64,000 nt of DNA from Candidatus Promineifilum breve (lineage in GTDB: Bacteria; Chloroflexota; Anaerolineae; Promineifilales; Promineifilaceae), in assembly GCF_900066015.1 (NCBI RefSeq), contig NZ_LN890655.1:930001-994000 (forward strand). Direction: 5' to 3'. The notes beneath the pieces were generated by a model. That model was not told the DNA's origin. It saw only the letters and a program-made list of their open reading frames with translations, and did not search any database. Made by a program: the position numbers and the translations under genes. Shown in pieces: positions 18,510-33,088 of the stretch; position 1 is the stretch's first letter, and the number at the start of each line of letters is the position of its first letter.

Positions 18510-20267
18510 ATGAGTACCAAGAAACCAACGTCCGGCGGCAAGAACAACCCGAAGCAAAACCGGAACGCTCTCCCGCCGGGGGTGACCAAGAAGCGCAAGT
18601 CGACCGGATTCATCGAGACCACGGGCTACAAGCCCAACTGGCTGGAGACAGGGCCGCTCGATCCGGAGATGCTGCCCGATCCGCTATTAGAAGACGACAG
18701 CCCGCTGTCGGCCGACGAATTTGAGGCGCTACAGCAGGCGTTACAAGGGTTCTACCAGCAGGAGGCGCTCGACCACCCGGAGGACGCGCCTGTGCCGCCG
18801 GTCGTGGCCGAAGTCGCTGCCCCGGTCGCCGAGCCGGTGGTCGAACCGGCCGAACCGCCGGCCGAGGGTGCGCTGCCGGAAGACCCCGCGCCGGAAGACC
18901 AACCGGCCCCAGACCAGCCCCCCGCGCCGGAAGCATGGATTCAGCCGCTGTTGGCCGACGACGCGCTATCGGCCGGGGTAGCTCGGCCATTGACGGTCGC
19001 CCCGCCGGTTCCGGTTGTGGATGACGTCTTCGAGGACGAAACGGACATCATCGAGGAAGAAGCGGTGGCCGAACCGCCGCTTGCAATCGAGCCGGCCGTG
19101 GCCGCGGCCGTGGTCGAACCTCCGGCCCCGGCCAAGCCCCGACGCCAACAGGCCGAACGAAGCGGCCCCCGCCGACGACGCGACCGGTTGGGGCTGGGCT
19201 TGCTGTTCATCAGCCTCTTGTTACTGGGCGCGGCGGCGTTGGTCTATTACGTCAACCCCTTTTCGCGTCTGGCGCTGGGCGCGGCCTCGCTGGCCCGGCC
19301 GGTCGCTTCGTCCGACAGCGCGTCGCCGGCCACGGGCAGCGGCAACTGGTGTGTGCAAGGGGAGTTCCAGGCAGCCTCGGCCGCGCCGGTGGCCCTCGTC
19401 GATGGCGGCGCGGGCGGCGATCTGCTGGGCGAGGACGGCATCTTCTCCGTCGAACAGGTCATTCCCCGACCCGGCGCCTATGAATGGCAGGTCATCGATT
19501 GCGACAACCCCGAGCTGATCTTTCCGCCGGCCCCGGCCTGGATCACCACCACAGCCGCCGACCAGCCGGTCACGTTCACCTTTGATAGCAATGAGAGCGC
19601 CGATCCGCTTTTCTTCCCGATTCCCTTCGTCGTCAGCGCCCTGGACGCGGCCGAAGATTACCGTCTGGTGGGCGATTTCCAGGGCTGGAACCCCGACGAC
19701 GCCAGCGGCCGGCTGGAGCAGATCAACATTGGCCTCTACCAGCAAGTCCGGCGCATCGCGCGCGCCGGCAGCTATGAGGGCTACGTCATAGCCGGCAACC
19801 GGCGTCAGGCTATCGATGCCTACGGTCGCACCACCGAACCGATTCCCTTCGCCTTCGAGACCGAACGCAACGGCGATTACGTCGTCTTTCTGGTCGATAC
19901 CGATCGCGGCCGGGCCTCGGTCATCTACGACATGCCGCCGTTGCTGGCCTCTTTGTCCTATGGCCGGGGGCATCTGATTCTCAGCCTGACCCTGGCCGGG
20001 CTGTCGCTGCTCCTGTTGCTGGGGTTGATGGCGCGCTATCTGGTGTTGCACAACCGGCGCTTGCAACTGGATAGCGGCTGTCCGCGCTGCGGCCGGTCGG
20101 AACTGATGCGCATCGCCCGCCGTTCGAGCGACCGATTTCTCCACATCTTTGGCATTCCCGCCTATCGCTATCGCTGCCGCCATTGCACCTGGGAAGGGTC
20201 GCGCCTGAGCGAGAGCGGCGAGACGGTATCGCCGGGAATATCCACCTCGCGCTTCAGCGGCGACTGA
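18510..20267 (+). CDS. Two-TM membrane protein with carbohydrate-module-like exterior and C-terminal zinc ribbon
   Basis: Protein of 585 aa with an unusual architecture. Residues 1-220 are low complexity, acidic and Pro/Ala-rich, ending in a basic patch. A membrane helix follows (about 226-247, LGLLFISLLLLGAAALVYYV). An exposed part of about 235 residues contains two modules: GNWCVQGEFQAAS...YEWQVIDCDNPEL and YRLVGDFQGWNPDDASGRL...GYVIAGN. The latter resembles the CBM48/pullulanase-associated fold. A second helix (about 488-512) returns the chain to the cytoplasm, where CPRCGRSELM...YRCRHCTW gives a CxxC-CxxC zinc ribbon. It could sense an external ligand and signal inward. Not recognised as a named family. 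Confidence 0.7.
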   Translation: MSTKKPTSGGKNNPKQNRNALPPGVTKKRKSTGFIETTGYKPNWLETGPLDPEMLPDPLLEDDSPLSADEFEALQQALQGFYQQEALDHPEDAPVPPVVAEVAAPVAEPVVEPAEPPAEGALPEDPAPEDQPAPDQPPAPEAWIQPLLADDALSAGVARPLTVAPPVPVVDDVFEDETDIIEEEAVAEPPLAIEPAVAAAVVEPPAPAKPRRQQAERSGPRRRRDRLGLGLLFISLLLLGAAALVYYVNPFSRLALGAASLARPVASSDSASPATGSGNWCVQGEFQAASAAPVALVDGGAGGDLLGEDGIFSVEQVIPRPGAYEWQVIDCDNPELIFPPAPAWITTTAADQPVTFTFDSNESADPLFFPIPFVVSALDAAEDYRLVGDFQGWNPDDASGRLEQINIGLYQQVRRIARAGSYEGYVIAGNRRQAIDAYGRTTEPIPFAFETERNGDYVVFLVDTDRGRASVIYDMPPLLASLSYGRGHLILSLTLAGLSLLLLLGLMARYLVLHNRRLQLDSGCPRCGRSELMRIARRSSDRFLHIFGIPAYRYRCRHCTWEGSRLSESGETVSPGISTSRFSGD

Positions 20268-21224: not shown

Positions 21225-22799
21225 ATGTCACGCGCCTGGCGCTCATCGTTGCACCTTCGGTTCGGCCCGGCTCTGGCGCTGGTCTTGTGGCTGGCCGGCT
21301 GCGTCCGTCCAGGGCCGAATCCGCCGACCTTCACGACGCCCAACGCGGCCACGCCCGGCGTGGTCACGGATGGCGGGGCCACCAGCCAACCGGCGGCCGA
21401 TCCCTCCCTCCCGCTCCAGACCCAACTGGGCACACCCGCGCCCGCCTACAACGGCCAACCCACACCCGACCCGGCCCACTACGAAACCGGGGCCGGCGGC
21501 GCGGCCACGCTGGGCAGCCACACCGTGGCCGTGGGCGAGACGCTGGGAATCCTGGCCCAACGCTACGGCACGACCGTCGAGGAACTTATGCGCCTCAACG
21601 GGCTGACCAACCCCGACCTCGTCCAGCTCGGCCAGGCGCTCCAGGTGCCGGGCGGCGAGATTCAACAGGTCGTCAGCCCGGACTTCAAGATTATCCCCGA
21701 TAGCGAACTCGTCTATGGCCCGGCGGCCCGCGACTTCGAGGCGCGGTCGTTCGTCAGCGGCTTAAATGGGTATTTATTGCGGGTCAGCGAAGAGGTCGAG
21801 GGGCAAGCGCTGGACGGCCCGGCCATCCTGCAACTCGTGGCCGACCGCCACAGCGTCAATCCCCGCCTCCTGTTGGCCGTGGTGGAGCACCGCACGGGCT
21901 GGGTGACACAGGCAACGCCGGCCGCCACCACGGCTGATCTGGGCGCGGGGGCCATCGTCACGCCCGGGCTATACGGCCAGTTGAGCTTCGCGGCCAATCT
22001 GCTCAATCTGGGCTTCTACGGCCGGGCCGAGGGCGGGCTGCGCGGCTTCAATCTGGGGGATGATACGCAGGTGCTCTTCTCGGCCGTCATCAACGACGGC
22101 ACGGCCGGGGTGCAGCGCTATCTGGGGGCCATCTCGGGCACAACCCGCGACGCCTGGCTGGAGGCAACCGGGGCGACGGGGCTCTATGCCACCTACCAAC
22201 GCCTCTTCGGCAACCCGTTCGGCTATGCCGTCGAACCGTTGCTGCCGGCCGGCGTCGCAGCGCCGCCGCTGGTATTGCCCTGGGCGGCAGGGGAAACGTG
22301 GTACTTCACCGGCGGGCCGCATGGCGCCTGGAATACCGGCTCGGCCTGGGGCGCGCTCGATTTCGTGCCGCCGGGCGATCAAGTGGGCTGCATCCCCAGC
22401 GACGCCTGGGTCACGGCCATGACCGGCGGCGTCATCAGCCGCAGCGGCCACGGCGCGGTGGTGGTCGATCTGGATGGCGACGGCTACGCCGGGACGGGTT
22501 GGGCCATCCTCTACATGCACCTGGAGACCCGCGACCGGGCCACGGCCGGGACGCAGGTGCAAAGCGGCGGCCGGCTGGGCCACCCCTCGTGCGAGGGGGG
22601 CTTCTCCAACGGCACGCACCTCCACATCGCCCGCAGCTACAACGGCCGCTGGATCAGCGCCGACGGCGAGCTGCCCTTCGTGATGAGCGATTGGGTATCG
22701 TCCGGGGCAGGCGCGGAATATGACGGCTATCTGACCCGCGGCGACCAGACGCGCGAGGCCTGCGTCTGCCGCGAACCAATCAATGCCCTCACTCCTTAG
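21225..22799 (+). CDS. LysM and M23-peptidase domain lipoprotein
   Basis: Predicted cell-envelope protein of 524 aa. The signal peptide ends in LWLAGC (lipid Cys26). A Pro/Thr-rich linker follows, then a LysM peptidoglycan-binding domain at about 97-143 ([20 protein letters not shown]...LQVPGG). The middle region (about 165-335) resembles a transglycosylase-like helical domain but has no obvious catalytic Glu motif. The C-terminal region is M23/LytM-like: [18 protein letters not shown], a Ca-binding-like DLDGDGYAG, and GTHLHIA with the HxH metal ligands. It probably cleaves or remodels cell-wall peptides. It overlaps the convergent HIT gene by 11 bases. Confidence 0.83.
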
Positions 22800-23142
22800 G
22801 CTTGGCCACCATGCGCCCCATGCGCCGCCCACCCAGCAGGTGCATGTGGAGGTGATAGACCTCCTGCCCGCCGTCGTGGTTACAGTTGATGATCAACCGG
22901 TAGCCGCTCTCGGCGATGCCTTCCTGGGCGGCGATCTTTTGCGCGGCCAGCAGCATACGCCCGGCCATGCGCTCGTCGTCCTCGGTCAGCTCGTTGACGG
23001 TCGGGATGACCTTGTTGGGCACAATGAGGATGTGGACCGGGGCCAGGGGTTGGATGTCGCGAAAGGCGGTCACCAGGTCATCCTGGTAGACGATGGCCGC
23101 CGGCAGTTCGCCGTTGATGATCCGGGCAAATATCGTAGACAA
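22789..23142 (-). CDS. HIT (histidine triad) family protein
   Basis: Small nucleotide-binding hydrolase of the HINT branch, 117 aa. It has the complete triad HLHMHLLGG near the C-terminus, preceded by [14 protein letters not shown], and the N-terminal [11 protein letters not shown]...[14 protein letters not shown] typical of purine-nucleoside phosphoramidases. The start is TTG at 23142 with AAGGAG 8 nt upstream. It overlaps the convergent LysM/M23 gene by 11 bases at the 3' end. The family is certain; the physiological substrate is not. Confidence 0.94.
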
Positions 23143-23178: not shown

Positions 23179-23275
23179 TTTAGCCACGGATGAACACGGA
23201 TCAAACGGATAAAAACGGATAGAGAGACTTCAATCCGTCTTCATCCGTCCCATCCGTGTGCATCCGTGGCTAATC
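23179..23275 (+). repeat. Inverted-repeat element, family B (CACGGAT), copy 1
   Basis: Starts TTAGCCACGGATGAACACGG and ends with the complementary CCGTGTGCATCCGTGGCTAA; the centre reads ACGGATAGAGAGACTTCAATCCGT. A second copy in the same orientation lies at 32992-33088 with the same centre. It sits between the HIT gene and the first PEP/pyruvate-binding gene, beyond both coding ends. Confidence 0.85.
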
Positions 23276-23410: not shown

Positions 23411-25747
23411 ATGACCACAGGTTCCCCGCCGCACAATATCACCCCCGCGATCAGCATCTACATCCGGCTGGCCCAATATCCCGTGCTGGCCGACAAAATT
23501 CATGCGCGCATGCGCCAGGAACTATTCCAGCGCGGCGTCATCGACGAGACGACCTTCGAGGCGCAGGTGCGCGAAGAGGCCATTGAATCGCAACACCGCG
23601 AACGGCTGAGCGACCCCTACGGCCAGGAAGAGGCCCACCTGTGGCAGAAGCGGCTGGCGCGGGTGCGCGACTTCCACACCGACGCCATCTTCGCCGACAA
23701 TCTGGGCATTGTCCTGTTCGACAAAATCATCCAGGACGTGTTGCGCAGCCAGCCCTCCTCGTCGCCTTCTTTCGGGCTGAACTTCAACCCCGAGCTGGCG
23801 CCGTGGGAAGTGTTGTTTCGCCAGGGCGAGATCTACGAGCGCCTGCCGGAAGCCGAATTCGAGCGCTGGCAGCATCATCTGGAAGAGATCAAAGTAGTGC
23901 TGATCAAGCGCATGATCAGCGACCAGTTGCCCTATATCGGCGTCGCCAAGCGCGTCTTCACCATCGCCGATCTGCGCTACATCTACAACCGGCGCATCGG
24001 CAGCGGCAAGATCGGCGGCAAGGCGGCCGGGCTGATGCTGGCCTGGCGTATCTTGCAGTTGGAGATGGGCGACGGCCGCGACATTCATCCGTCCATCGGC
24101 ATCCCCGAATCCTACTTTCTGGCGACGGAAGTGATTTACGAGTTTCGGCTGCGCAACAAGCTCGATCACTTTATGAACCAGAAATACCGTTCGCTGGCCG
24201 AGATACGGGAGGACTACCCGCGCATCGTGGAGGCCCATCTGGCGGGAACCTTCCCCCCGGCCATCGTCGAGCAGATTCGCGACGTGCTGACCGACATGGG
24301 CAACAGCCCGCTCATCGTGCGTTCGTCGAGCTTGCTGGAGGACAACTTCGGCTTTGCCTTCGCCGGCAAATACAGCAGCTTTTTCTGCCCCAACCAGGGC
24401 ACGCCGGAGCAAAATCTGAATGACCTGCTCAATGCCGTGCGCCGCGTCTATGCCAGCACGCTCAATCCCGATGCCATCCTCTACCGCCAGAAGCATGGCC
24501 TGATCGACTATGACGAACGCATGGCGATCCTGATTCAGAAAGCGGTCGGCCAGCCCTACGGTCAATATTACTTTCCCATTTTGGCCGGTGTGGCCTTCAG
24601 CCAGAATCCCTTTCGCTGGAACAGCAAAATTCGGCGCGAGGACGGCTTCCTGCGCCTGGTGTGGGGCTTCGGCACGCGGGCCGTCGACCGCGTCAGCAAC
24701 GACTACCCGCGCCTCATCGCCCTCAGCCATCCCCAACTGCGCCCGGAGACGACGGCCAAGGCCATTCGCCAATACGCCCAATGGTACATCGACGTCATCG
24801 ACTTGCAGGACAACAGCTTCAAAACGCTCCACATCCTCGACCTGTTGGATAGGAAATACCCCTATCTGCGCTATATCGCGTCGGTGAAGCGCGACGACTA
24901 CTTGCAGGAGATCGTATCGGCCGGCAGTATCCGGCCGGGCGACGAATTCGTCCTGACGTTCAACGGCCTGACGAAAGATCGCGCGTTCGTCCACATGATG
25001 CGCTCGGCGTTGCAACGGCTGGAGGCCACCTACGAGCGGCCGGTCGACGTGGAGTTCATCGTCGATATCCTGCCCAACTACCCGCAAACGGAGTACCAAC
25101 TGCGCGTGCTGCAATGCCGCCCGCTGAGCCAGCGCGCCGAAGCGGCCGCGGTGACCATCCCCCGCAATATCCCGCCCGAAGCCATCCTCTTCACATCGAA
25201 CAGTCTGGTACCCGATGGTCGGGCCGAGGACATTCGCTACGTCGTCTACGTCGATCCGCAAGCCTACTTCATGCTGCGCGACACGACCATCAAGCACGAA
25301 TTGGCGCGGGCCATCGGCCGCCTCAACAAGCGGCTGGAGGACGAGCAGTTTATCCTGATGGGGCCGGGCCGCTGGGGCAGCGTCAACATCGACCTGGGCG
25401 TCCACGTCACCTATGCCGACATCTTCAACACCAAGGTCCTCGTCGAGATGGCCGTGGCCCGCGACGGCCACATCCCCGAATTGTCCTATGGAACCCACTT
25501 CTTCCAGGATTTGGTGGAGGCCGGTATCCACTCGCTGGCGCTCCATCTGGGGGCCGGCACGGCCGACGAGACATTCAACTGGCAATTCTTCGCCGGCGCG
25601 CCCAACCGGCTGGCCGATCTGCTGCCCGAAGACGCGAGCCTGTCACCCTATATGAAGGTCATCGATCTGGCCGAGCTGCCGGGCGGCCGCCGCCTCCACG
25701 TCCTGATGAACGGCGCGCGCGAGGAAGCCGTGGGCTATTTGGCCTGA
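23411..25747 (+). CDS. PEP/pyruvate-binding domain protein (PPDK_N-like), paralogue 1
   Basis: 778 aa. The middle carries the ATP-grasp-like N-terminal domain of PEP synthase and pyruvate phosphate dikinase: GSGKIGGKAAG at about 197-207 and PLIVRSSSLLEDNFGFAFAG at about 300-320. The phosphohistidine swivel domain and the PEP/pyruvate TIM barrel of the full enzymes are absent. In their place is a conserved C-terminal region with GPGRWGS at about 651 and ELSYGTHFFQDLVEAG at about 690-705. The N-terminal 190 residues (ISIYIRLAQYPVLADKIHARMR) are helical and shared only with the next gene. The ATG at 23411 is the first start after the promoter-like box. Reaction unknown. Confidence 0.8.
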   Translation: MTTGSPPHNITPAISIYIRLAQYPVLADKIHARMRQELFQRGVIDETTFEAQVREEAIESQHRERLSDPYGQEEAHLWQKRLARVRDFHTDAIFADNLGIVLFDKIIQDVLRSQPSSSPSFGLNFNPELAPWEVLFRQGEIYERLPEAEFERWQHHLEEIKVVLIKRMISDQLPYIGVAKRVFTIADLRYIYNRRIGSGKIGGKAAGLMLAWRILQLEMGDGRDIHPSIGIPESYFLATEVIYEFRLRNKLDHFMNQKYRSLAEIREDYPRIVEAHLAGTFPPAIVEQIRDVLTDMGNSPLIVRSSSLLEDNFGFAFAGKYSSFFCPNQGTPEQNLNDLLNAVRRVYASTLNPDAILYRQKHGLIDYDERMAILIQKAVGQPYGQYYFPILAGVAFSQNPFRWNSKIRREDGFLRLVWGFGTRAVDRVSNDYPRLIALSHPQLRPETTAKAIRQYAQWYIDVIDLQDNSFKTLHILDLLDRKYPYLRYIASVKRDDYLQEIVSAGSIRPGDEFVLTFNGLTKDRAFVHMMRSALQRLEATYERPVDVEFIVDILPNYPQTEYQLRVLQCRPLSQRAEAAAVTIPRNIPPEAILFTSNSLVPDGRAEDIRYVVYVDPQAYFMLRDTTIKHELARAIGRLNKRLEDEQFILMGPGRWGSVNIDLGVHVTYADIFNTKVLVEMAVARDGHIPELSYGTHFFQDLVEAGIHSLALHLGAGTADETFNWQFFAGAPNRLADLLPEDASLSPYMKVIDLAELPGGRRLHVLMNGAREEAVGYLA

Positions 25748-25757
25748 GGTTCACACT

Positions 25758-28121
25758 ATGATGAACGAGCAACCCCTGCGAACCCTCACCCCCACCATCG
25801 ATATCTATATCAAGCTGGCCCAATACCCGATCATGGCCGACCGCGTGCGCGATCGGATGCGCCAGGAGCTATTCCAGCGCGGCATCATCGACCCGGACAC
25901 GTTTGAGCACGAGGTGCGTGAGATGAGCGAGGCCTCGCAACTGCGCGAAGGTCTGGGCGACCCCTATTATGAGGAGGACTCCCACACCTGGCAGATTCGG
26001 ATCGAGCGCATCCGCGACCACCGCACCGACGTCTACTTCGCCAACAATCTGGGCAGCGCCCGGCTGGACACGCTCATCGAGGAGGTGCTCAATAGCCGCT
26101 CGTCCGCGCCCGACATGGCCCCCATCTCCTTCAATCCCGAGATCGCCCCCTGGGAGATGCTGTTCCGGCAGGGTGAAGTGTATGAGCGCATGGCTGCCGA
26201 CGAATTGGAGCGCCACCGCCACCATCTGGAGGAGATCAAAGTCGTCCTGATCAAACGCCTGATGAGCGATCAACTGCCGTTCATCGGCGTCGCCAAGCGC
26301 GTCCTGACCATCAGCGACCTGCGCAACATCCACCACAGCCTGATCGGCACGGGCAAGATCGGCGGCAAGGCGGCCGGCATGTACCTGGCCTGGCGCATCC
26401 TGCAACCGGTCGATGACCAGTTTAACCAGGGCATCATCAATATCCCCGATTCCTATTTCATCGGCACCGACGTCATCTATGAGTTCTTTCTGATGAACCA
26501 GTTGGAACACCACATGAACCAGAAATACCGGCCGGTTCAGGAGATTCGCGCCCAGTACCCGCGCATCGTCCAGGATTTTCGCCGGTCGGCGCTGCCCGAT
26601 TATGTGGTGGCGCAGGTGCGCGAAGTGCTCGGTACGATGGGCGATAGCCCGCTGATCGTGCGCTCATCCAGTTTGCTGGAGGATAATTTCGGCTTCTCCT
26701 TTGCCGGTAAATATGACAGCTACTTCTGCCCCAATCAGGGCACGGCCGAGGAAAACCTGGAGGCCGTGCTCGATGCCATTCGCCGCGTCTATGCCAGTTC
26801 GGTCAACCCCAACGCGCTGCTCTACCGCAAGAAAAACAACCTCATCGACTACGACGAGCGGATGGCGATCCTGTTGCAGCGCGTGACGGGCCACTGGTGC
26901 GGCCGTTACTACTTCCCCGACGTGGCCGGCGTCGGCTTCAGCGAAAACCCGTTCTGCTGGACGCCCGAGATCCGCCGCGGCGAGGGCTTTCTGCGCATCG
27001 TCACCGGGCTGGGCACGCGCGCCGTTGACCGCGTGGCCCAGGATTACCCGCGCCTGATCCCGATCAGCCACCCCCACCTGCGGCCCGAAATGGACGTTGA
27101 GGGACAGCGCAACTACTCCCAGCGCTTCATGGCGGTCATCGACCGGGACAGCAATAGCGTGGTCACCGTTCCCGTGCGCGAGGCGTTGCCGCGCTGCGGC
27201 CCGCTGCTGTCGTTGGTGGCTTCGATTGACCGCGGCGGGTCGCTGGCCGCCATTCTGCCCGGGGCGACCATCCACCCCGATGACCACATCGTCCTGACCT
27301 TCGATGGTCTGACCCACGATGAAACCTTTATCGCCATCATGCGCCAGGCGCTCCAGGAGTTGGAAGACGCCTACAACGGCCCGGTCGATCTGGAATTCGC
27401 CATCCAGGTGGATTTCGCCGACAACAGCCCGGCCGAAGAGGGCGCGCCAGCCGGCCCACCACAGCACAGCTATCGGCTCCACGTCCTGGAGTGTCGCCCG
27501 CTCAATGAGCGGCTGCCCGCCGGTGATGACACCGACCGTGTGGATTACGACGCCAACCGCCGTCTCTTTGCCATGCCGACACTGTTGCCGTCGGGCACGG
27601 TGGAGGCCATCGACTATCTCGTCTTCGTCGATCCCGAGGTTTATTACCACATCGAGCGCGAGGAAGACCGGCTCCATATCGCCCAGACCATCACCGCCCT
27701 CAACGATCTGTTGCCGGCCGGCCGCTTTGGGCTGATTGGGCCGGGGCGTTGGGGCAGTCTCAATAGCCGCCTCAGCGTGCCCATCAGCTATAGCGACATC
27801 TGCAACGCTCGCCTGCTGGTGGAGATCAGCCCGCCCTATACCCCCGCGCCCGAACTGGCCTACGGCACGGACTTCTTCCAGGACGTGCTGGAGGCGGGCA
27901 TCTTCGTCCTGGGCATTCAGCCGACGCCCGAGGGTGGGATGATGGATTGGAAGCTGCTGCGCGAGTCGGCCAACCACCTGGCGAATTACGTGCCCGAAGC
28001 GGCCGATTGGGCCGATTGCGTGCGCGTCATCGACCTGCAAGCCGCGGCCGGCAGTCCACTGAAGATCATCATCGACGACGAGACCAACGAGGCCATCGCC
28101 TGTTTCGACGTACCTGAATGA
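25758..28121 (+). CDS. PEP/pyruvate-binding domain protein (PPDK_N-like), paralogue 2
   Basis: 787 aa, collinear with the preceding gene over its whole length and clearly its tandem duplicate. It shares TIDIYIKLAQYPIMADRVRDRMR, GTGKIGGKAAGMY at about 197, PLIVRSSSLLEDNFGFSFAG at about 300, GPGRWGSLNSRLSVPISYSD and ELAYGTDFFQDVLEAG. The identity is roughly half by eye, so this is an old duplication with retained function, perhaps as a heteromer. It also lacks the His-swivel and PEP-barrel domains. It starts 10 nt after the first gene's stop, with TGAGG spanning that stop. Convergent with the DHH-CBS fusion, 7 nt between stops. Confidence 0.8.
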   Translation: MMNEQPLRTLTPTIDIYIKLAQYPIMADRVRDRMRQELFQRGIIDPDTFEHEVREMSEASQLREGLGDPYYEEDSHTWQIRIERIRDHRTDVYFANNLGSARLDTLIEEVLNSRSSAPDMAPISFNPEIAPWEMLFRQGEVYERMAADELERHRHHLEEIKVVLIKRLMSDQLPFIGVAKRVLTISDLRNIHHSLIGTGKIGGKAAGMYLAWRILQPVDDQFNQGIINIPDSYFIGTDVIYEFFLMNQLEHHMNQKYRPVQEIRAQYPRIVQDFRRSALPDYVVAQVREVLGTMGDSPLIVRSSSLLEDNFGFSFAGKYDSYFCPNQGTAEENLEAVLDAIRRVYASSVNPNALLYRKKNNLIDYDERMAILLQRVTGHWCGRYYFPDVAGVGFSENPFCWTPEIRRGEGFLRIVTGLGTRAVDRVAQDYPRLIPISHPHLRPEMDVEGQRNYSQRFMAVIDRDSNSVVTVPVREALPRCGPLLSLVASIDRGGSLAAILPGATIHPDDHIVLTFDGLTHDETFIAIMRQALQELEDAYNGPVDLEFAIQVDFADNSPAEEGAPAGPPQHSYRLHVLECRPLNERLPAGDDTDRVDYDANRRLFAMPTLLPSGTVEAIDYLVFVDPEVYYHIEREEDRLHIAQTITALNDLLPAGRFGLIGPGRWGSLNSRLSVPISYSDICNARLLVEISPPYTPAPELAYGTDFFQDVLEAGIFVLGIQPTPEGGMMDWKLLRESANHLANYVPEAADWADCVRVIDLQAAAGSPLKIIIDDETNEAIACFDVPE

Positions 28122-28128
28122 TGGCCGG

Positions 28129-30813
28129 TCAATACCCTTCGGCGGCCAATAGCGATGCCAGCAACGCCCGTTCGGATGCCTCATCGCCCGTTTCGCCATC
28201 CAGCCGGGCCAGCCACAGCCGCTCCAACACGCGCGTGTAGACCGGGCCGGGCGGCACACCGGCGCGGCGCAGATCCTCGCCGGTGATGCCGGTCTTAATC
28301 GCGCGCCAATCGCCGACGTAGCGGTCGAGCCACTCATCGGCCCGCGGCCCCAGTCCCAGCAGGCGGGCCGTCAACAGCGTGCGCGGCGCGAATTTCGCTA
28401 ATGCCCGCGCCACGCGGCTGACCGGCGCGTCGGCGGGCATCTCGGCCAGCGCCTGTTGCAGATCGTCCAGGGCCAGCAGATCGGTCATCGTCGCCTTGCG
28501 CACGCGCAACCGTTCGGCCACCGCCGCCGGAATGGGCGCGGCAAACGGGGCCAGCCACGCCGCAAAATAGTAAAACTTCGGCGGGCTGGAGCGATAGACC
28601 TCGCCCCACAGCGGGTCGCCGGCCAGGGTCGGGATGCGTTCGTAGATGGCGGCCGTCTCCGGTCGCCAACTCAACCCCGGATGAAACTGGGCCATCACCC
28701 CCACCTCGTCCAGCCGCTCCATCACCAGGACGGGGTTGGCCTCGTTCAGGCTCAACTCGATCTCGTTGCGCACCCGCTCGCCACTCACCCGATCCAGCAG
28801 CGGCAGCGCCGTGGCGATGAGCGCCGCTGTGGATGGTTCGATGGTGAAGCCCAGCCGCTGCTCCAATCGCACGGCGCGCAGGATTCGCGTGGGGTCGTCG
28901 ATGAAACTGAGGCTGTGGAGCACGCGAATGATGCCGCGCCGTAAATCGCGCCGTCCGCCATAGAAATCGAGCAACTGGCCCAGGTGATCGCCATCCAGCC
29001 GGATGGCCAAAGTATTGATGGTGAAATCGCGCCGGTGCAGATCGAGCTTGATCGATCCCGGCTCCACGTCGGGCAGGGCCGTCGGCCGCTTGTAGAACTC
29101 CTTACGCGCGCTGACAAAATCGATGGTGGCCGGGGGCTGGGCTGGCGCGTCGGCCGCCGCGCCATCCGGTCGATTCGCATCCGGGTAGGCCTCGCGCGCG
29201 GCGGCGATGACGGCGGCGTACGTCTCCGGCGTCATCGCCCATTTGGCCGTGCCGAAGCGCTCATGGCTATGGACCTCGCCGCCGAAGCGCCGGCTCAAGG
29301 CCCTGACCAGACGGATGGCGTCCCCTTCGACTACGATATCGAGGTCGGTCGGCGGCTTATCGAGCAGCAGATCGCGCACCAGGCCGCCGACGAAATAGAT
29401 CGCCATGCCCAGGTCGGCGGCCGTCTCACCGGCCACGCGCACGATGGCCCACAACGACGGCGACAGCGAGCGGGCCATCCGGTCGCGCAGATCGGTCTCC
29501 GGCGCTTCCGGCGCGGGCCGGAACAGGGCATTGAGCAAGTCGGTGCGGGTGACAATGCCGATGGGCATCCGCCGTTCGGGTGGGTCGTCCCCTTCCTCGG
29601 CCACCACAGGGATCTGCCCCCAGCCTTCGGCGGCCATCAACTCCTGCACCCGTTCCAGCGTATCGGAGGGATGGACGAAAATCGAGCCGGGGCGCATGAT
29701 GCGGCTGACGGGGTGCGTTGCCATCTCGTGGCTCATGGCCCGGTCGACGGCGCGGCGGGTCACCAGGCCGACGATGCGATTCTGCCGCTCATCGACCACT
29801 GGGAAGCCTTCGTGGCCGTGGCGCAGCATCAGCGCGGCCACTTCGCTGACCGTCGTCGTGGCCGGCACGGTCTCCACGCCGTGGGACATCAGGGCGGCCA
29901 CGCGGGCCGTCGGCCGCACGGCCAGGGGCAGGGTGGAGCGCACGCGGTCGGCCACCTCGGCCAGCCGGCCGCCGACGATCATGGCCGCCGACGCCCGGCT
30001 GTGGCCGCCGCCGCCCATCAGGCGCGCCACCAGCCCCACATCGACCTCATCGACGGCGCTGCGGGCCACCAGCTGCACGCCGTCGCCCAGCTGCACCAGC
30101 ACAAACAAGCCGTCGGGCGACAGCGAATCGCGCAGGCGATGGGCCACCGAGGAGATTTCGTCGGCGAAGCCCGGCGGGGCGTCGGCCGTCGCCAGGGCAA
30201 TCGGCCGGCCCTCGATCTTCAGCCACTCCACGTCGCGGGCCAGCGCGTCGTAGAGGGCGCGCTGTTGATCGGAGAGGGCCACGTTCAGGAAGCGGCGGGC
30301 GACGTTGAGCAGCGCCCCCTGCTCCAGCAATCGGGCGGCGGCCTGCACGTCGCGGGCGGTTGTCGTATCATAGGTCAGCCCGCCGGTATCCTCATAGATG
30401 CCCAGCAGCAATAGCGTGGCCTCTTCCGGCGACAGCACCAGGCCGCGGGCCAGAAGCCGTTCGACCAGCAACGTCGAGGTCGCGCCCACAGCCTCGACCT
30501 CATAAGTCCATTCCGGTTTGTGGGCCTGATCCATGTGGTGATCGATTACGTGCACCCGCGGCCGGGCGACCACACCGCGCACGTTGCCGAGCGTCTGGGT
30601 ATCGACCAGGATCACCGCGTCGATGGATCGTCGCCGCCAGTCCTCGGCCCGCACGAACGGCAGCGCATCCCAATAGAGGTTCAGGAATTGCTGCACGTTG
30701 CGGTTCAGGTGGTGCGGCAGAAGCGCCGTCGCCGCCGGATACAGCTTCTTGGCCCCCAGTTGCGAGGCCACGGCGTCGAAATCGGTTTTCTCGTGGGTCA
30801 GGATGAGGGCCAT
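28129..30813 (-). CDS. DHH - CBS - tRNA nucleotidyltransferase (CCA/A-adding type) fusion protein
   Basis: 894-aa multidomain protein. Residues 1-290 form a DHH/DHHA1 phosphoesterase (DFDAV at 11-15, VDTQ at 70-73, VIDHHMD at 89-95, GGGGHSRASA at about 268). Residues 300-430 contain two CBS domains. From about 470 on it is a class II nucleotidyltransferase (YFVGGLVRDLLLDKPPTDLDIVV with the DxD metal pair; RRDFTINTLAIR; DPTRILRAVRLEQRLGF), followed by helical neck and tail. This architecture is known for A-adding or CCA-adding enzymes in several bacterial phyla; partners adding C would be elsewhere. The nanoRNase-like DHH part may trim or recycle. A TATAAT ends 7 bases before its ATG. Confidence 0.92.
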   Translation of the reverse strand: MALILTHEKTDFDAVASQLGAKKLYPAATALLPHHLNRNVQQFLNLYWDALPFVRAEDWRRRSIDAVILVDTQTLGNVRGVVARPRVHVIDHHMDQAHKPEWTYEVEAVGATSTLLVERLLARGLVLSPEEATLLLLGIYEDTGGLTYDTTTARDVQAAARLLEQGALLNVARRFLNVALSDQQRALYDALARDVEWLKIEGRPIALATADAPPGFADEISSVAHRLRDSLSPDGLFVLVQLGDGVQLVARSAVDEVDVGLVARLMGGGGHSRASAAMIVGGRLAEVADRVRSTLPLAVRPTARVAALMSHGVETVPATTTVSEVAALMLRHGHEGFPVVDERQNRIVGLVTRRAVDRAMSHEMATHPVSRIMRPGSIFVHPSDTLERVQELMAAEGWGQIPVVAEEGDDPPERRMPIGIVTRTDLLNALFRPAPEAPETDLRDRMARSLSPSLWAIVRVAGETAADLGMAIYFVGGLVRDLLLDKPPTDLDIVVEGDAIRLVRALSRRFGGEVHSHERFGTAKWAMTPETYAAVIAAAREAYPDANRPDGAAADAPAQPPATIDFVSARKEFYKRPTALPDVEPGSIKLDLHRRDFTINTLAIRLDGDHLGQLLDFYGGRRDLRRGIIRVLHSLSFIDDPTRILRAVRLEQRLGFTIEPSTAALIATALPLLDRVSGERVRNEIELSLNEANPVLVMERLDEVGVMAQFHPGLSWRPETAAIYERIPTLAGDPLWGEVYRSSPPKFYYFAAWLAPFAAPIPAAVAERLRVRKATMTDLLALDDLQQALAEMPADAPVSRVARALAKFAPRTLLTARLLGLGPRADEWLDRYVGDWRAIKTGITGEDLRRAGVPPGPVYTRVLERLWLARLDGETGDEASERALLASLLAAEGY

Positions 30814-30992: not shown

Positions 30993-31050
30993 TATCGTTC
31001 TAACATGAAGTAACATTGGCTCACGAGTGGGAAATCAGAGGAAAAAGAAC

Positions 31051-31929
31051 ATGGTCAAAAATTCCGGCAGTGCCTTTGAATTTAGCCTGAGGGGGCCGAA
31101 CGCGCTCTCGCGCAAGATGGTGGTCGCCGTCATCTTGTCCGTCGCGCTAATTGCCTTCGAGATCTTCAACTTCGACACGACCCAGTACGCGCTCACCAAC
31201 TTGCTGGGCGAGGTTCGCTTTGCCGGGGTGCTGTGGGCGTCGATCCTGGCGATTGCCTTCTGCGCCATCGACTTCGCCGGGCTGGTGCGCATCTTCACCC
31301 CGCAAAAGGGGCGCGAAGAGCCGCGCGCCGTCTTGTTCCTGACCGGGGCCTGGTTCCTGGGCACCATCGCCAATTCGATTATGACCTGGTGGGCCGTGTC
31401 GCTGACGCTGCTGAGCCATGACTTCGGCAACGAGGTGTTGAGCCGCGAGATGCTGTTGCGCTACGTGCCCATCTTTGTCGCCATGCTGGTCTGGCTGACG
31501 CGCATCCTGTTCATCGGCGCCTTCTCCGTCACCGGCGAGGAGATGTTCGACATGGCCCGCGGGCGGAGCGAGGCCGATCGCGCCCCTGCCCCGGCCCGGC
31601 CCGAAACAGCCGCTCCGCTGCCCGCCCGCGCGGCGAGCAATCGCCAAACGGCGGCCGTCGCCTCCGGCCCGGCCGCCCCGGCCCAGCCGGCCGCCCGCAC
31701 CACCGCCGCCAAGCCGGCCGCGGCCAACGCCGCCCCCAGCCGCCCGCCGGTCACCTACGAACCGGTCGACGACCCGTTCGACGATCTGCCGGTGGCCCCC
31801 AAGACCAACGGCGGCAACGGCGCGGCCCGGCCCAACTCGCGCATCCAGCAACGGCCGCCCATGCCGGGCGGCATGAACCGGGCCACCACGGGCAATATGC
31901 AGGCCCGCTCGCCCAACAATCGCAGCTAA
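31051..31929 (+). CDS. Four-TM membrane protein with Pro/Ala-rich tail, unknown function
   Basis: 292 aa. Four predicted membrane helices occupy the first 150 residues or so (VVAVILSVALIAFEIFNF; VLWASILAIAFCAIDFAGL; AVLFLTGAWFLGTIANSIM; YVPIFVAMLVWLTRILFIG). A low-complexity cytoplasmic or extracellular tail rich in Ala, Pro, Asn and Arg follows, with an acidic VDDPFDDLP motif. The ATG at 31051 is preferred over an upstream GTG because AGAGG lies 9 nt before it. It stands alone behind its own AT-rich promoter and palindrome. No family was recognised. Confidence 0.72.
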   Translation: MVKNSGSAFEFSLRGPNALSRKMVVAVILSVALIAFEIFNFDTTQYALTNLLGEVRFAGVLWASILAIAFCAIDFAGLVRIFTPQKGREEPRAVLFLTGAWFLGTIANSIMTWWAVSLTLLSHDFGNEVLSREMLLRYVPIFVAMLVWLTRILFIGAFSVTGEEMFDMARGRSEADRAPAPARPETAAPLPARAASNRQTAAVASGPAAPAQPAARTTAAKPAAANAAPSRPPVTYEPVDDPFDDLPVAPKTNGGNGAARPNSRIQQRPPMPGGMNRATTGNMQARSPNNRS

Positions 31930-32991: not shown

Positions 32992-33088
32992 AATTTAGCC
33001 ACGGATAAACACGGATAGGACGGATGAACACGGATAGAGAGAATTCAATCCGTTTAATCCGTGTCCTATCCGTGTTTAATGATTAAAT
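32992..33088 (+). repeat. Inverted-repeat element, family B (CACGGAT), copy 2
   Basis: TTTAGCCACGGATAAACACGG opens the left arm; the right arm reads TCCTATCCGTGTTTAATGA. The centre ACGGATAGAGAGAATTCAATCCG matches the centre of the copy at 23179-23275, same orientation. The right arm is shorter and partly diverged. Confidence 0.83.

Follow-up and report, generated by a model that had tools for sequence, protein, structure and literature searches.

The two tandem genes at positions 23411 to 28121 of the window (the whole 64,000-nt stretch of DNA analyzed) encode members of a widespread, uncharacterized protein family, named family F here and defined by a PPDK_N (ATP-grasp) domain followed by a domain with the motifs GPGRWG and GTxFF; both copies, A and B, qualify. 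Genomic linkage to glutamate dehydrogenase (GDH) is the strongest functional clue for the family, and this context suggests that F is linked to the regulation of glutamate metabolism or to phosphotransfer connected with it. By analogy with VadK of Mycobacterium tuberculosis, F may be a regulatory phosphohistidine kinase of glutamate metabolism with copy B as a non-phosphorylatable partner, a reading to which we give an even chance. The features of the two genes are as follows.

23411-25747, + strand: copy A, 778-aa PPDK_N protein with the C-terminal GPGRWG/GTHFF domain, His retained
23444-23989, + strand: copy A N-terminal region, residues 12-193, all-helical in the model, without a Pfam match
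24008-25162, + strand: copy A PPDK_N (ATP-grasp), residues 200-584, with K204, R304, E310, D311, D546, E548, Q568, and R570 retained
25184-25744, + strand: copy A C-terminal domain, residues 592-778, proposed diverged phosphohistidine swivel (model and superposition; sequence tests negative)
25496-25498, + strand: copy A H696 codon (GTHFF), proposed phosphoacceptor, His in 93 of 95 lettered alignment rows
25758-28121, + strand: copy B, 787-aa paralogue, 10 bp 3' of copy A
26355-27407, + strand: copy B PPDK_N, residues 200-550 (Pfam)
27489-27491, + strand: copy B E578, replacing the Q of LQCRP (Q568 in copy A), Q in 94 of 96 rows
27561-28106, + strand: copy B C-terminal domain, residues 602-783 (motifs and copy B model)
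27870-27872, + strand: copy B D705, replacing the near-invariant His, Asp in all three pair-bearing genomes

The copies are collinear and 51% identical from end to end over 787 columns, and the first-pass annotation, made from the sequence alone, was right to describe them as tandem paralogues in one operon, the genes being on the same strand and 10 bp apart. For copy A, the mechanical ORF starts at 23258 (GTG), with homology only from the ATG at 23411. The motifs GGKAAG, VRSSSLLEDNFG, GPGRWGS, and GTxFFQD are present in both copies; the last reads GTDFFQD in copy B, so the His is lost there. PPDK_N was the sole Pfam family found in either copy (187.2 bits for A and 163.2 bits for B, cut-off 27), in agreement with the ATP-grasp of PEP synthase (PEPS)/PPDK type recognized earlier from the motifs. 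PF00391 (swivel) and PF02896 (PEP barrel) gave no Pfam match in copy A or B, and NCBIfam gave sub-threshold matches of PEP-synthase type only. The window genome (5.03 Mb in 3 contigs) has one other PF01326 gene, for a complete 970-aa PPDK-type protein with its own swivel and PEP barrel (contig C1, 501-504 kb); the PF01326 search of this genome found no further member of family F.

The pair is flanked by a divergent gene for a HIT-domain protein (22789-23142; PF01230, 99.5 bits) and, convergent with copy B, by a gene for a fusion of DHH, CBS, and poly(A) polymerase head domains (28129-30813), a homologue of which lies near F in six loci among the matches listed, the window included. Two proteins without a Pfam match (18510-20267 and 31027-31929) have homologues in the same places in genome G144 and isolate CHL10. 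Positions 23180-23273, 5' of copy A, form a near-perfect palindrome (DNA fold -33.4 kcal/mol, z -10.5). Its arm TAGCCACGGATGAACACGGAT was found at seven genome sites with at most two mismatches (reversed control, 0) and related arms also lie at 32999-33035, so the palindrome looks like a dispersed miniature repeat.

The scan of named genomes gave at least 583 confirmed relatives among at least 589 matching stretches, of which 80 loci were kept; L-numbers below denote individual loci. Among the matches listed, the F loci were labelled Chloroflexota, Planctomycetota, Ignavibacteria, Calditrichota, Acidobacteriota, Bacteroidota, Myxococcota, Spirochaetes, and some archaeal MAGs. The C-terminal region, whose motifs GPGRWGS and GTxFFQD had been read correctly but taken as a novelty of the pair, therefore marks a broad family and is not special to A and B. 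Full-length relatives were found in 12 of 151 Chloroflexota genomes, the window genome included, and family F in 17 of 99 Bacteroidota genomes. The product name in one annotated record, from Parabacteroides distasonis, is "PEP/pyruvate-binding domain-containing protein". The open-access full-text literature searched held no paper on family F or its GDH linkage; passages of PMC3281104 deal with ppsA adjoining SelO in enterobacteria and with how kinase-like folds cluster, not with family F. A viral origin was considered and dropped, one IMG/VR scan with copy B having given no relative.

Several subtypes were seen in the fetched loci. The window type is about 780 aa long. A subtype of about 1060 aa carries a C-terminal nucleotidyltransferase domain (PF01909 in 15 of the 19 members scanned, among the matches listed); a GAF domain suspected by eye at its N-terminus was rejected, as Pfam gave no GAF match. 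A subtype of about 1000 aa has an N-terminal extension, in which a receiver domain was over the cut-off in two of the five members scanned (L117, L128), sub-threshold in L121 and L123, and not found in L047. A short form of about 585 aa has PPDK_N as its only Pfam domain and ends in the same C-terminal domain. Judged by their domains, the receiver and nucleotidyltransferase fusions look regulatory, of a signalling type. Two or more F genes (each at least 480 aa) were present in 12 of 78 F-bearing loci among the matches listed, and several of these genes share a few bases at their ends; paralogous pairs thus recur across the family.

In a blind clustering of the neighbours in the fetched loci, GDH was the commonest non-self neighbour among the matches listed. 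Its identity was checked by Pfam in 35 proteins, with PF00208 in 34 and PF02812 in 34; the two incomplete ones are read as halves of one gene split in two frames in L127. The following counts hold for the matches listed, leave out L064 and L125 (in which the ORF picker missed F), and use longest-frame ORFs, so that shadows occur. In L087-L128, mostly from other phyla, 21 of 41 loci had GDH within 700 bp of F and 25 had it anywhere in the stretch, against 3 and 5 of 37, respectively, in L049-L086, which are mostly Chloroflexota; the background was 2 GDH genes in a set of 407 located over 3 kb away from F. The distance was 1.5-3.8 kb in L100, L102, L104, and L113, and GDH was absent from the stretch in 16 of the 41, some of them at contig ends. 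In Bacteroidota, a GDH match lay within 4 kb on the same strand for 28 of 34 F matches, in 16 of the 17 F-bearing genomes, a linkage that the first-pass annotation passed over although it is the best clue to function. F is divergent from gdhA in Parabacteroides distasonis, with a second GDH nearby, and has two GDHs around it in Phocaeicola massiliensis; no GDH was found in the F-bearing stretch of Prevotella oral taxon 299. In Chloroflexota, GDH adjoins F in G104, as it does in G128, whose F is a distant relative not counted among the 12; it is 4-12 kb away in G072, G080, G005, and G046, and 28 kb away in G112. Linkage is absent in 5 of the 12 (G000, G144, G011, G096, and G018), with GDH far off or on another contig: the pair is 939 kb from GDH in the window genome (G000), and GDH is on another contig in G144. 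On these data, the linkage looks old and partly lost, also in the lineage of the window; linkage as such does not define the activity of F.

Other genes accompany F in particular clades. In 19 Anaerolineae loci among the matches listed (L042, L043, L045, L046, and 15 among L062-L099), the near neighbour in place of GDH is dnaN, named by eye, on the same strand as F and within 1 kb of it; a metallophosphoesterase is a neighbour in 7 loci. Such neighbours fit a reading in which F and GDH have only their regulation in common, for example because amino-acid fermentation calls for the expression of both, and F acts on a substrate that has nothing to do with GDH; we consider this somewhat doubtful, since the GDH linkage recurs across subtypes and in several phyla, in two orientations and with different GDHs. 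The metallophosphoesterase is a conserved calcineurin-like protein (PF00149 in the L124 copy) that adjoins the subtype of about 1060 aa in L091, L097, L106, L123, L124, L126, and L127, among the matches listed, and is a possible phosphatase partner of F. A deoxynucleoside-kinase-like gene, also named by eye, is found 3' of F in five loci among the matches listed. One Parabacteroides "plasmid" record (L181, NZ_OY725790.1) carries ruvC, rapZ, and two GDH genes and may therefore be a chromosomal piece.

The structure of copy A was modelled from 96 sequences with good confidence (pLDDT 91.2, pTM 0.84) and that of copy B from 14 sequences with mediocre confidence (pLDDT 74.9, pTM 0.60). The first 190 or so residues of copy A are helical in the model and without a Pfam match, as the first-pass annotation had described for the N-terminal region. 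The top Foldseek matches of the copy A model were rifampin phosphotransferase, HpeI, and PPDK. A VIA-align fold search, covering essentially the model beyond its N-terminal 164 residues, superposed it on PEPS 2ols with Z 25.3, rmsd 4.0, and 366 aligned residues (model 199-778, chain 18-466) and on 1dik with Z 17.8, rmsd 4.2, and 350 aligned residues (model 165-778, chain 12-510), the output giving the aligned ranges by their end points only. The entries 1dik, 2dik, 1kbl, 1ggo, and 1jde together gave 348-356 aligned residues at rmsd 4.2-4.4, from model residue 164/168 to 777/778 and with chain ends at 505-512. Other PPDK entries aligned over the ATP domain alone, with 218-230 residues as against about 350, so about 120 further residues superpose in the five entries just named; the stretch that follows the ATP domain in PEPS and PPDK is the swivel. 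On 2ols, the superposition of the weaker copy B model ends at model residue 784 and chain residue 467, with rmsd 6.9. In the copy A model, H696 opens a helix (696-703) between the strands 676-682 and 707-713, as one would expect of a swivel His.

Sequence comparisons of the C-terminal domain were negative. PF00391 matched none of 47 F C-terminal domains, and a PDB sequence profile search found no swivel, only VAMP7-type matches (E of 0.1 or higher) that were taken as unrelated. HHalign against 8 and 30 swivel sequences was not significant (E 0.12 and E 0.06-0.83, respectively), and the forced path did not place H696 on the swivel His. When the full length was aligned to PEP synthases (HHalign, four template sequences), E was 2e-21, driven by the ATP-grasp domain; the default local alignment extends slightly beyond this domain, and the forced path leaves the two His residues unpaired. 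Taken from structure superposition and His conservation only, the F C-terminal domain is probably a strongly diverged phosphohistidine swivel that is unrecognizable by sequence. Of the two absences claimed for the pair at first, that of the PEP barrel thus holds (no PF02896), while that of the swivel holds at the sequence level only, the structure indicating a diverged one.

The lack of a sequence match to PF00391 agrees also with a C-terminal domain that binds substrate, the ATP-grasp domain then directly phosphorylating or ligating a small molecule related to glutamate or 2-oxoglutarate as in ordinary ATP-grasp ligases. GPGRWG is conserved as strongly as the His motif in the family F alignment, and carbamoyl phosphate synthetase and D-Ala ligase also align in VIA-align. 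Their Z of 8-10 compares with 16-27 for the best PEPS, PPDK, and rifampin phosphotransferase rows, however, PEPS and several PPDK rows superpose through the F C-terminal domain, and the receiver and nucleotidyltransferase fusions look regulatory, which makes direct transfer unlikely.

Conservation was read from a 96-row alignment (A3) in copy A numbering, for which the motif filter or unreadable letters removed 14 of 108 family ORFs; L063, a duplicate of L039, was also left out. K204, R304, E310, D311, and R570 are present in all 96 rows and E548 in 95; position 546 is D or E throughout, and Q568 is kept in 94, the other two having Glu, among them copy B of the window. F thus has the ATP-site residues of PEPS/PPDK type, with Q to E in copy B, and its ATP-site motifs line up with those of PEPS in the profile alignment. 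In PPDK numbering, the ATP-site residues include K22 and R337; K22A and R337A occur in PDB titles of the fold-search matches. The only exceptions to His at position 696 (GTHFF) in the lettered rows of A3 are the B copies of the window and G144 (Asp). Among the rows left out with a legible motif, His is found in L098, L101, L106, L111, and L127, Asp in copy B of L050, and Gln in L095 and L099, while L081 ends before the domain.

The tandem pair is found in 2 of the 12 Chloroflexota genomes with a full-length relative (the window genome and G144, of the same genus) and in the isolate CHL10; G104 has two unlinked copies, and the remaining genomes have one each. The two-copy arrangement noted at first is not the wider pattern, most relatives being single-copy. 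In a 68-row tree, the A copies of the window, G144, and CHL10 form one clade and the B copies another, each with full support and both in a small local part of the tree, with a stem of 0.67 for B versus 0.23 for A; the duplication is thus local, and copy B diverged faster. Pairwise dN/dS ranged from 0.08 to 0.14 in A and from 0.13 to 0.20 in B, dS exceeding 1 and so being near saturation in every pair; at such values, copy B is under purifying selection and not a pseudogene. Asp replaces His in copy B of all three pair genomes (the window, G144, and CHL10, in the last as GTDFYKS), and, given the purifying selection, A and B look like an active subunit paired with one that is dead as a phosphoacceptor. 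A heteromer of A and B is possible, as copy B has lost the His yet is under purifying selection. A 565-aa copy at L081:2564- groups with B (support 90) and stops directly after the ATP-grasp domain (LQCHP), with the C-terminal domain missing. The Leptolinea F proteins (L095:4270- and L099:7953-) lie on a long branch (2.35), have Gln for His (GSQFYQN) and an eroded GPGRWG, and represent a second, independent loss.

The retention of copy B without the His or the ATP-site Gln, and the loss of the His in Leptolinea too, would also suit a non-catalytic nucleotide sensor, in which F binds ATP or AMP and regulates GDH allosterically without phosphotransfer, with copy B as the extreme case. Nearly all members, however, retain the His and the complete dikinase ATP site, more than binding alone would require, and we regard such a sensor as decidedly unlikely. 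A split or decayed PEP synthase or PPDK that draws its His and PEP domains from other genes, as the homology of PPDK_N to PEPS/PPDK might suggest, is highly improbable and was rejected, since the search for these domains in genes adjoining the relatives, the refuting test named in the first-pass annotation, found neither PF02896 nor PF00391 near F in any of the 16 genomes examined, the domains found elsewhere belong (by frame length) to complete PPDKs, PTS enzyme I, or proteins of that kind, and the window genome has a complete PPDK-type protein of its own.

In the preferred reading of F as a VadK-like kinase, the protein would be a PPDK/PEP-synthase derivative built of a helical N-terminus, the ATP-grasp domain, and the diverged swivel. 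ATP bound in the ATP-grasp domain would phosphorylate the His that opens the swivel helix, in copy A H696. As F is without a PEP barrel or other substrate domain, the phosphohistidine would not be spent on pyruvate and would be a regulatory state or be passed to another protein. The likeliest target, given the recurring neighbour, would be GDH or glutamate/2-oxoglutarate metabolism. Copy B, with Asp for His and Glu for the ATP-site Gln, would be unable to take up the phosphate and would partner copy A, probably in a regulatory role. The phosphorylation, its target, and the association of A with B are points that we only infer. A fuller version is put forward tentatively, as one that may well be wrong: family F would be a phosphohistidine-based control of glutamate and nitrogen metabolism, in which a PEP-synthase remnant reads the ATP state, phosphorylates a cryptic swivel His, and switches GDH, with elaborations in several phyla, namely receiver and nucleotidyltransferase domains as well as paralogous partners that keep or lack the His.

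GDH is among the main enzymes of both ammonium assimilation and the fermentation of amino acids, and to our knowledge its control in Bacteroidota, Chloroflexota, and related phyla is little understood. Being located beside GDH, also in the gut genera Parabacteroides and Phocaeicola, F is a direct candidate for this control. If the reading is true, the conversion of a metabolic dikinase into a regulator, as in VadK, would be seen in a large family besides that one lineage, and A and B would form a natural couple of active and inactive kinases.

Compared with known systems, F has in common with PEPS/PPDK (PF01326+PF00391+PF02896) the ATP-grasp domain with its catalytic residues and the superposition with 2ols and 1dik, but it is without the PEP/pyruvate barrel, and its swivel is undetected by sequence; the score against TIGR01418 was 47.7 bits (cut-off 739.75). 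Rifampin phosphotransferase shares the ATP-grasp domain and is the top structural match (5hv3, Z 26.6). In the part of PMC4844700 drawn on here, it is described with a His swivel at the C-terminus and a large rifampin-binding domain between the ATP-grasp and the swivel. F is without this domain, its C-terminal domain following directly after PPDK_N in proteins of 778-787 aa, and scored 34.7 bits (A) and 46 bits (B) against NF041857 (rifampin phosphotransferase; cut-off 999). The prodigiosin ligases PigC/RedH show weak NCBIfam similarity to F in the ATP-grasp part only, with profiles of about 880 aa, cut-offs of 1300-1350 bits, and a best score here of 49.1. If the control reading is true, F would be analogous in role to GlnD/GlnE/PII and the nitrogen PTS but unrelated to them in build. 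By analogy, the closest functional precedent is VadK (Rv1127c), which the passages of PMC13400623 drawn on here describe as an autophosphorylating PPDK remnant with ATP and His domains and no PEP domain, and as a proposed regulator of metabolic enzymes of the methylcitrate cycle. The PPDK-derived ATP-grasp domain and the absence of a PEP domain are common to both, the His domain of F being indicated by structure only. As described in the same passages, VadK is a direct truncation of PPDK with a catalytic-His domain of PPDK type, whereas F is set apart by its extra helical N-terminus, a swivel unrecognizable by sequence, and its GDH neighbour.
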